Shown: in pieces, positions 47,958 to 50,650 of the stretch
Numbering within the stretch: position 1 is the first letter of the stretch
Layout: every line of letters starts with the position of its first letter
From: Natronorubrum tibetense GA33
GTDB lineage: Archaea; Halobacteriota; Halobacteria; Halobacteriales; Natrialbaceae
DNA length: 64,000 nt
NCBI RefSeq assembly: GCF_000383975.1
Contig: NZ_KB913017.1
Coordinates: forward strand, 441,133-505,132
Direction: 5' to 3'
Notes under the pieces: generated by a model
Databases searched by the model: none
Seen by the model: only the letters and a program-made list of their open reading frames with translations
Told to the model about the DNA's origin: nothing
Program-made: the position numbers and the translations under genes

Positions 47958-48293
47958 ATGACAGAGTACGCGATCGAGTTCGTCGGAACCGGCGAGACGA
48001 TCACCTGCACGGACAAGGAGACCATCCTCAGTCGCTGTCTCGAGGAGGGTATCGCTCAGGAGTACTCCTGCCGCGTCGGGATGTGTCTGGCCTGTTCGGC
48101 CGAGATTCTCGAGGGCGAGGTCACCCAGCCTGCGGCTCGAGGCCTGACGGAGGAGGAAGCGGAAAACTACGCACTGACCTGTATGGCCCGCCCGCAGTCG
48201 GACCTGAAACTCGATCGCGGGAAGTACCCGCCGAGCATCGAGGGGGATCTCGAGAGCAGCGCCACGGGTGACACAGCCGCTGCGGACGATTAA
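47958..48293 (+). CDS. [2Fe-2S] plant-type ferredoxin
   Basis: 111 aa. CRVGMCLAC with a more distant LTCMARP gives the four cluster Cys. MTEYAIEFVGTGETITCTDK start. Divergent from the flavoprotein gene above; electron donor role is inferred, as is any link to 2-oxoacid oxidoreductase. Confidence 0.9.
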   Translation: MTEYAIEFVGTGETITCTDKETILSRCLEEGIAQEYSCRVGMCLACSAEILEGEVTQPAARGLTEEEAENYALTCMARPQSDLKLDRGKYPPSIEGDLESSATGDTAAADD

Positions 48294-48636
48294 CGCGACG
48301 TCCGCTACGGGACATCATTTCTCATCCGATCGGAGCGCTATGAAGTTTCCCACTACCGAGTGGCGGAACCCGTCTCGCGTCAACAGCCGGGAATCGGAGT
48401 TCAAGGCGTACTCTCCCAGAAAAGTGTGGGTCGATGGAATTTTGAAACCCTACTGCATCAGGACCGGGGTTCAACCATGTCCGCGACGCTGAACTGCACG
48501 CTCGAATCGATATCTACAGCCGGGTTCGATCCAGGCGTTGTCGGCAGTGCTCGAGCCTTCCCATTACGCCCGACCAGTTTTTGGCTAGCTTTTTACTACA
48601 CAAGAATTATACATTTTTACTCGAGCCAACTCGTAT
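48294..48636. other. intergenic region ahead of the halocin-like gene (343 bp)
   Basis: No gene called. AT content rises after 48570 (tttttactacacaag, ttatacattttt), which is a good promoter region for the gene at 48637. Isolated ggttcaa/ggttcgatcc stretches at 48471 and 48524 resemble a tRNA T-loop but I could not build stems, so I reject tRNA. Confidence 0.45.
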
Positions 48637-49461
48637 ATGTCTGACAAAAATACTGATGGGGTCGAATCAGTGGCTACCACGGAATCACCACTTGACCGTC
48701 GGACGCTATTAAAAGGTATAAGCGGGAGTACAGTTGCATTCGGCGCCAGTATCGGTACTTCCACTGTTTCGGCAGCCCAGAACGACGAGCCACCAGTCAC
48801 CGAGGTCGACAATGGGCAGGCGAGGAAGGCGATCGGTCGTGCGAGGCGATCGGATGCATTCAAGGAGCTCAAATCGTATCTTCGTGACGCGTACGATCTC
48901 ATCGTCCCATCTCGGGATGCAAGAGTGTTCGAGGCTGAAGGGCCCGAGGGAACGGCGTACGAGGTCGTCTCGTTTTACCCGAAGCGTCGAGGTCAGGGAT
49001 CGAACGAGAATACGCAGTACAGTCTCGCTGTGACGCTCCGTGGCTCGAGTGTTGTCTCCAATAAAGCAACAATCGTTTCGTTCGATGACGGCGATATCCC
49101 TACCGACGCTACCTCAATCAGCGTCCGCGAGGGCGATATCGAAGAGTCGGAGGAATCAGTCGAAATAAACGATCCGGAAGACCCAGAGACATCAGCCGGC
49201 CATGAAACGACAGGTGCGGAAACGGCGTCCGTAACGGTGCAATCGACGAGTTGTAACCTCTGTCGAACGATCTTCGATCTGGCTTGCGTCGTAGGTTGTG
49301 GAGTTGGCGCTGCAGCACTCTGCTTACTGGCTGGTGTGACGACGTTCGGCACCGGATTCATCGTGTGTGCAGGGGTCACTGCAGCCGTCTGCTATTTCAT
49401 CCAACGGTTCGGTTGCACGCCCCCTTCCAGAACCGCCTGCACGGAGATGAGCTACTGTTAG
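48637..49461 (+). CDS. halocin-C8-like antimicrobial precursor
   Basis: 274 aa. Tat signal LDRRTLLKGISGSTVAFGAS (RR at 21-22). Residues 60-190 are a globular acidic pro-domain; the C-terminal 72 residues (from STSCNLC) have ten cysteines at 206, 209, 217, 221, 229, 244, 252, 260, 268 and 274 and a hydrophobic middle, matching the size and Cys count of mature halocin C8 (76 aa, ten Cys), whose precursor is about 283 aa. In C8 the pro-domain is also the immunity protein. Lower GC than neighbours, so likely acquired. Confidence 0.85.
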   Translation: MSDKNTDGVESVATTESPLDRRTLLKGISGSTVAFGASIGTSTVSAAQNDEPPVTEVDNGQARKAIGRARRSDAFKELKSYLRDAYDLIVPSRDARVFEAEGPEGTAYEVVSFYPKRRGQGSNENTQYSLAVTLRGSSVVSNKATIVSFDDGDIPTDATSISVREGDIEESEESVEINDPEDPETSAGHETTGAETASVTVQSTSCNLCRTIFDLACVVGCGVGAAALCLLAGVTTFGTGFIVCAGVTAAVCYFIQRFGCTPPSRTACTEMSYC

Positions 49462-49489
49462 TACCTACCAACACAATATACACAACAAT

Positions 49490-49669
49490 ATGTTCGAAAA
49501 TTCATCCGACAGTTTGGCCGTTCAATCCTCGATCCTTTTCGGAGTCGTTTTCCTCGTCTTCTTCGGGCTGTCCGTTCTATTCGGCGATTCGATACGTCGA
49601 GGTGCACTCTACGGGTTCGTGATCGCGGCTGCCTTCGCCGGCGCGGCAATGATCCTCCTGTCCCGATAG
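49490..49669 (+). CDS. 59-residue two-span membrane protein, halocin-locus partner
   Basis: Two transmembrane helices: SILFGVVFLVFFGLSVLFG and GALYGFVIAAAFAGAAMILL. Starts 29 bp after the halocin-like gene on the same strand with a TATA/AT-rich gap, so probably co-transcribed or divergently timed. Could be an immunity or transport helper; function unknown to me. Confidence 0.65.
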   Translation: MFENSSDSLAVQSSILFGVVFLVFFGLSVLFGDSIRRGALYGFVIAAAFAGAAMILLSR

Positions 49670-49720
49670 TTCGTCACCCACGACTCCGGTTCGTACGAGC
49701 ACACGAGAATCTGGGACCGA

Positions 49721-50650
49721 TCACGCCACGCGGTTCTTCAGCGACTCGCCCGCCTGGAACCGGCGGACGTTCTCGCGGACCAGTTCGGCGATATCGAGGT
49801 GGTAGCGGTTCGTCGCCGAGCCGCGGTGTGGCGTCACGATGACGTTCTCGAGGTCCCAGAGCGGTGACGACGGCGGCAGTGGCTCCGTCTCGAAGACGTC
49901 CAGTGCGGCGCCGGCGATCGCGTCCGTTTCCAGCGCTTCGACCAGCGCCGCCTCGTCGACGAGCGGCCCGCGGGCGACGTTGATCAGGTAGGCGTCCGTC
50001 CGCATCGCGTCCAAAATCCGCTCATCGATCATCCCCTCGGTTTCCGGCGTGTGCGGGGCCGCGAGCGCGACGAATCGGGCGTCGGCGACAGCGTCCTCGA
50101 GCGCGGGCGGGTCGTAGATCCGCGAAACCGATGGCACGGACCCCTCGGAGCGACGGACGCCGACGACCTCCATGCCGAGGGCGTCGGCTCGCTCCGCGAT
50201 AGCAGTGCCGATCGTTCCGAGACCGACGACGCAGAGCCGTTCGTCCGAGAGCGTAAACGGGCGCTCGTAGGCCGGGTCGTGCCACTCTCGTTCTCCCTGG
50301 TGATCGCGGTACACGTGCAGCAGTCGCGCCAGCGACAGCATGTAGCCGACGGCGAGTTCCCCGACGGTCTCGCCGTGGATCCCGGAGCTGTTGGTGAGCG
50401 GTACCCCGGCGCCCTCGTAGGCGTCGGTGTCGAACGCGTCGTATCCCGCGCGGATGCAGTGGACCCAGCCCGCCTCGAGAAATTCCGGGCGCGGTTCGAA
50501 CGAGGCGACCGCGTCCGTCGAGGCGTAGGACGCCTCGTCCCCGACGAGTTCGACCCGAACGTCGAGGCCGTCGAACGCGTCGACGAACGCCGCCTTCGGG
50601 ATCTTCGTCCCGACCGATTCGTGCAGACACAGCCGCTCGAGTGGTGCCAT
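49721..50650 (-). CDS. D-2-hydroxyacid dehydrogenase
   Basis: 309 aa. Rossmann loop VVGLGTIGTAIAERADALGM (about residues 142-161), NVARGPLVDEAALVEALETD with the catalytic Arg region, and the C-terminal ENVIVTPHRGSAT with the catalytic His. Reduces a 2-oxoacid with NAD(P)H; substrate unknown. A TATA-like tataaaaata at 50721-50730 may be its promoter on the minus strand. Confidence 0.9.
   Translation of the reverse strand: MAPLERLCLHESVGTKIPKAAFVDAFDGLDVRVELVGDEASYASTDAVASFEPRPEFLEAGWVHCIRAGYDAFDTDAYEGAGVPLTNSSGIHGETVGELAVGYMLSLARLLHVYRDHQGEREWHDPAYERPFTLSDERLCVVGLGTIGTAIAERADALGMEVVGVRRSEGSVPSVSRIYDPPALEDAVADARFVALAAPHTPETEGMIDERILDAMRTDAYLINVARGPLVDEAALVEALETDAIAGAALDVFETEPLPPSSPLWDLENVIVTPHRGSATNRYHLDIAELVRENVRRFQAGESLKNRVA

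Follow-up and report, generated by a model that had tools for sequence, protein, structure and literature searches.

The window analysed here, a 64,000-nucleotide stretch of the Natronorubrum tibetense GA33 genome, contains a gene for a halocin C8-like precursor and, 28 nt after its stop codon and in the same direction, a gene for a 59-aa two-span membrane protein, hereafter P59 (Table 1). The gene order around the pair is ferredoxin, halocin, P59 and dehydrogenase, followed by ftsZ. The first-pass annotation had described a 274-aa frame with a Tat signal and ten C-terminal cysteines (C206-C274) together with the 59-aa two-span frame, and all of these features were confirmed. The low GC content that it reported relative to the neighbours was also borne out: the segment 48294-49720 has a GC content of 54.7%, compared with 63.9% for the whole window, and GC3 is 58% in the halocin gene and 67% in the P59 gene, compared with 79-87% in the neighbouring genes.

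Table 1. Features of the halocin-P59 locus, with positions counted from the first nucleotide of the window
Feature	Position	Strand	Basis
Halocin C8-like precursor, 274 aa, ATG start	48637-49461	+	TIGR04449, 59.6 bits (cut-off 24); alignment A1
Tat-type signal region (RRTLLKG, hydrophobic stretch, VSA-AQ)	48637-48780	+	Read from sequence; R21/R22 at least 90% conserved among 20 members
Pro-domain, residues ~52-185, counterpart of HalI	48790-49191	+	Aligns with HalC8 pro-domains; model
Ten-cysteine halocin domain, residues 206-274	49252-49458	+	TIGR04449 positions 1-69 of 69; modelled four-helix saposin-like fold
P59, 59-aa two-span membrane protein, candidate cognate immunity protein	49490-49669	+	28 nt downstream; homologue in G368; family-wide pattern
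Segment missing in the closest relative, G189	48296-49719		blastn breakpoints and gene order
Ferredoxin gene, conserved flank, outside the system	47970-48293	+	Gene order
D-2-hydroxyacid dehydrogenase-like gene, flank outside the system	49721-50650	-	Name from sequence; gene order

We compared the precursor with the curated family TIGR04449 (NCBIfam halocin_C8_dom, curated cut-off 24 bits). The full model matched residues 206-274 with 59.6 bits, and the E value of 4.5e-16 indicates that the cysteine pattern is not due to chance. All 20 members of alignment A1 matched TIGR04449, and the ten cysteine columns were invariant among these diverse members as well as in alignment A3. The cysteine spacing is 2-7-3-7-14-7-7-7-5 in the window protein and 2-7-3-7-13-7-8-8-5 in the HalC8 clade, so that the number and order of cysteines are the same as in halocin C8 and three of the nine gaps differ, by one residue. 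The pro-domain could be aligned with those of other family members, including HalC8 (alignment A1), and matches spanning it were found in other halocins (best E 1.9e-16). The twin-arginine motif DRRTLLKG occupies residues 20-27. Thus the TIGR04449 score, the order and spacing of the ten cysteines, and a Tat-type signal followed by a HalI-homologous pro-domain all place the protein in the halocin C8 family. The first-pass annotation was therefore correct in naming a halocin-C8-like precursor, but its view that the cysteine pattern and the pro-domain differ visibly from those of halocin C8 did not hold, and the distinct halocin class that it considered on the basis of the cysteine pattern was rejected.

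HalC8 precursors of Natrinema and Haloterrigena are mostly 283 aa long, and the Tat-exported HalC8 precursor yields the peptide and an immunity part, HalI (PMC11509114). The window protein resembles this system in its Tat-type precursor of similar length (274 aa), its homologous pro-domain and its ten C-terminal cysteines of identical order and nearly equal spacing; it differs in being only distantly related and in having a 59-aa membrane protein downstream, which HalC8 loci lack. The true halocin C8 clade was anchored by locus L088, which shares 98% identity with the gene of Haloterrigena salina and 82% with its counterpart in Natrinema altunense. The window precursor is ~18% identical to that of L088 over the full alignment and falls outside the HalC8 clade (clade support 100), and no close relation to ProC8 was found. 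Given the family match, the shared cysteine pattern, the alignable pro-domain, the low identity and the position outside the HalC8 clade, the window precursor is, on sequence, a divergent member of the known family, neither halocin C8 proper nor a separate class. Among 392 genomes from the order, 53 have TIGR04449 members, in a patchy distribution. No relatives were found in plasmids or viral contigs, which gives no sign of a mobile carrier. A scan of genome contigs with the window protein returned no named relative, and Pfam, which has no model for the halocin domain, returned no match above its cut-off for either protein of the pair.

Several variants of the precursor were observed within the family. 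In L129, L133 and L149, the precursors are very long (680-706 aa) and end in a halocin domain that has lost C3 and C8. L091, L120, L131 and L141 have an N-terminal extension with a conserved DG[GS]GC motif ahead of the Tat signal. Stand-alone proteins of ~150 aa in L155-L158 have no signal peptide and resemble the halocin pro-domain (best E 1.9e-6); they are possibly free HalI-like proteins.

The site of the pair was then compared between genomes. In G189, the closest relative compared, the ferredoxin gene is directly next to the dehydrogenase gene and a ~1.4-kb segment is missing, with approximate blastn breakpoints as in Table 1; the halocin and P59 genes are absent together. In G368, from a different genus, the same site between ferredoxin and ftsZ holds only a P59 gene, which is 59% identical, and we found no halocin domain in the G368 genome and no halocin remnant in its 181-nt spacer. 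This is the one clear relative of P59, which thus has two known occurrences, one of them beside a halocin gene. The dN/dS of the two P59 genes was 0.27/0.46, only moderately below 1, and their dS of 0.46 (59 codons) was similar to or somewhat lower than that of the flanking genes (0.56-0.90). The recent acquisition proposed in the first-pass annotation fits the low GC content and the empty site in G189. Because a relative from another genus, G368, retains a lone P59 gene at the same site, however, an older cassette with repeated loss could also explain the pattern. Either a halocin-P59 cassette was lost piecemeal, or the halocin was inserted beside an older P59; the G368 homologue may be an ancestral gene with no relation to the halocin, which would have been inserted next to it later.

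To place P59 in the family, we collected the neighbourhoods of the window gene and 69 further family members, giving 70 loci in 47 clusters at 50% identity. An ORF was scored as a partner when it was co-directional, encoded a protein of 45-160 aa for which two or more spans were predicted, and started between -20 and +130 nt past the halocin stop. Such a partner was present at 30 of the 70 loci (22 of 47 clusters), compared with 8 of the 311 ends of other genes in these loci (2.6%), 2 of 70 on the divergent side of the halocin gene and 3 of 1400 dinucleotide shuffles (Fisher p 7e-16, counted by clusters); the contrast is large, even though uncurated ORFs served as control genes and spans were called by a simple hydropathy rule. 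At many of the loci that lack a co-directional partner, a convergent one lies close by, but small multi-span ORFs in convergent orientation were also seen at 21 of 293 controls, and the statistics were therefore restricted to the co-directional set. The true HalC8 clade has no co-directional small membrane partner, which agrees with its immunity being provided by the precursor itself (PMC11509114). Members of the family can thus do without a second gene, since about half of the clusters, and the whole HalC8 clade, lack a same-strand ORF of this kind.

The partners split into many unlike sequence families, and partner type tracks halocin type. Many other TIGR04449 proteins therefore share with the window protein both the C-terminal domain and a small multi-span ORF directly downstream, while differing in the sequence family of that ORF. 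Partners of 66-70 aa are homologous to one another although their orientation is flipped, being co-directional in L104 and L136 and convergent in L108 and L110. Among the 392 genomes, this partner had seven confident homologues, six of them no more than 2.5 kb from a halocin gene, and a 4-span partner had six, all adjacent to a halocin gene (within 2.5 kb), which together gives 12 of 13 at this distance. In L210 (genome G249), a 66-aa partner is present and the halocin is absent, whereas the congeneric genomes of L211 and L212 keep the halocin in a syntenic locus that is ~92% identical. The halocin of L210 is missing together with another small membrane protein. Two orphan partners were thus found overall, the P59 relative in G368 and the 66-aa partner in G249, and both fit an immunity function because immunity genes often outlast the toxin.

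An adjacent, toxin-specific small membrane protein is a mark of two-gene bacteriocin-immunity systems, and the enrichment and the two specific families show this mark in the halocin family. The proposal in the first-pass annotation that the halocin has its own small two-span partner is supported indirectly, by the family-wide co-occurrence, the specificity and the orphans, and the function of P59 itself is predicted from its sequence and setting. Taken together, the comparison suggests that P59 may be a dedicated immunity protein, a second gene apparently missing from HalC8.

We next examined the cysteines for signs of pairing. Across the family, C3 and C8 were lost together with a phi of 1.0, C4 and C7 with 0.96, and C1 and C10 with 0.89, and the loss of C3 and C8 occurred at three separate places on the tree. 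The exceptions were single-cysteine losses in L135 and L136 and the degenerate member L147. The pattern implies a predicted nested disulfide ladder, C1-C10, C2-C9, C3-C8, C4-C7 and C5-C6, in which co-loss supports C3-C8, C4-C7 and C1-C10, and C2-C9 and C5-C6 follow by elimination only.

Saposins have a nested disulfide topology. A model of the last 75 residues, built from a 26-member alignment, showed four helices at moderate confidence (pLDDT 79). Its best solved match was human saposin A (2dob; rmsd 2.5 Å, 69 of 75 residues), with a Z of 7.6, a range where helical bundles can match through arrangement alone; the next structure had a Z of 3.2. In Foldseek, the saposin A match had an E value of 8.3, and no relationship to saposins was seen at the sequence level, including in a profile search of the PDB. 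For these two reasons the saposin-like fold of the C-terminal domain is taken as a lead. The modelled domain would share the four-helix arrangement and the nested disulfides of eukaryotic saposins and saposin-like proteins, but it has ten cysteines whereas saposins have six. The pro-domain was modelled, mostly with high confidence, as two helices and six strands; its cystatin-like matches (Z 4.7) were weak and were set aside. The full-length model gave no significant match in Foldseek or VIA-align.

We consider it fairly probable that the locus is a two-gene toxin-immunity cassette, consisting of a membrane-disrupting saposin-like halocin and its cognate membrane immunity protein. The precursor would leave the cell folded, through the Tat pathway, with the pro-domain (two helices and a beta sheet) restraining the C-terminal domain. 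An extracellular protease, probably a subtilase, would free a peptide of ~70-75 residues. The genome carries nine S8-family protease genes, and activation by an S8-type enzyme has been published for other halocin precursors (PMC12893001). Halocin C8 is described as the molecularly best-known halocin, yet its processing protease is unidentified (PMC12893001). The freed peptide would have a saposin-like fold of four helices and five nested disulfides; it may insert into or disrupt the membranes of related haloarchaea, and P59 in the membrane of the producer would block it there.

Bacterial systems offer an analogy for this mechanism. Bacterial saposin-like bacteriocins act on membranes (PMC7559574; PMC10269926). 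Enterocin AS-48, lacticin Q and aureocin A53, circular and leaderless bacteriocins with a saposin-like fold, are hydrophobic multi-helix membrane-acting peptides, as is predicted for the halocin. Circular bacteriocins have a dedicated immunity protein, which is small, cationic and hydrophobic (PMC6131525) and of which P59 would be the candidate counterpart. However, enterocin AS-48, lacticin Q and aureocin A53 have no Tat precursor and no disulfide ladder, and no sequence relation to them was found. The parallel is one of working, and not of common descent or membership.

An alternative is that the locus is a single-gene system in which immunity comes from the pro-domain alone, with P59 as a chance neighbour. 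HalC8 works in this way (PMC11509114), the window protein retains the pro-domain, the true HalC8 loci do without a co-directional partner, and P59 stands without a halocin at the same chromosomal site in G368. We nevertheless regard a chance neighbour as unlikely, since small multi-span ORFs follow the halocin in 22 of 47 clusters and only 2.6% of the controls, two partner families are nearly confined to halocin loci, and the closest relative, G189, lacks both genes together. The partner may instead serve export, processing or anchoring of the peptide. Conserved linkage alone would look the same for this role and for immunity, and in some loci the 4-span partners (120-132 aa) precede a large multi-span protein that is possibly part of a transporter. 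This role is rather improbable: Tat export needs no dedicated partner, partners that outlast a lost halocin (G368, G249) fit immunity better than biosynthesis, and there are many unlike partner families that track halocin type.

The precursor could also be a halocin that has degenerated or been repurposed and lacks antimicrobial activity, with, for example, a signalling or cell-surface role. Its sequence is far from that of any tested halocin (~18% identity to the HalC8 precursor), and the antimicrobial activity of the window halocin is predicted from sequence. However, the frame is intact and retains the ten cysteines, the Tat motif and the downstream partner, which makes a lost function very improbable. 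Immunity conferred by P59 against an active halocin is the reading that we prefer.

For the family as a whole, we tentatively propose, at somewhat less than even confidence, that halocin C8-type proteins are archaeal saposin-like membrane-disrupting toxins with nested disulfides, normally encoded in two-gene cassettes whose dedicated small membrane immunity protein changes along with the toxin type and persists when the toxin is lost; the single-gene immunity of HalC8 would be the exception. The putative toxin of the window is itself a new member of a described family. In a literature search, outside which many subscription papers lay and an earlier mention is possible, we did not find the recurrent partner, its specificity, the orphans, the disulfide ladder or the saposin-like model, nor any paper that describes the fold of halocin C8 or connects it with saposins. 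With a testable map of the disulfides, a hypothesis for the fold and candidate immunity genes in dozens of haloarchaeal lineages, the mode of action and the self-protection of archaeal antimicrobial peptides would become directly testable, and the spread of new halocin types that leaves their hosts alive would find an explanation.

Larger membrane proteins were also observed near halocin genes. A conserved two-span protein of ~240 aa lies, in convergent orientation, just downstream of five related halocin genes (L119, L121, L123, L124 and L127). Downstream of the 4-span partner in L086, L090 and L106 lies a large multi-span protein, which has 539 aa in L086 and no match to a known family. A two-span protein of 260-325 aa, one of which was scanned and had no Pfam or NCBIfam match, occurs near the halocin genes of L102, L147, L151 and L152 and carries the motifs YTGxNRC and YLRGYLVPGTPTLTKRYLP.
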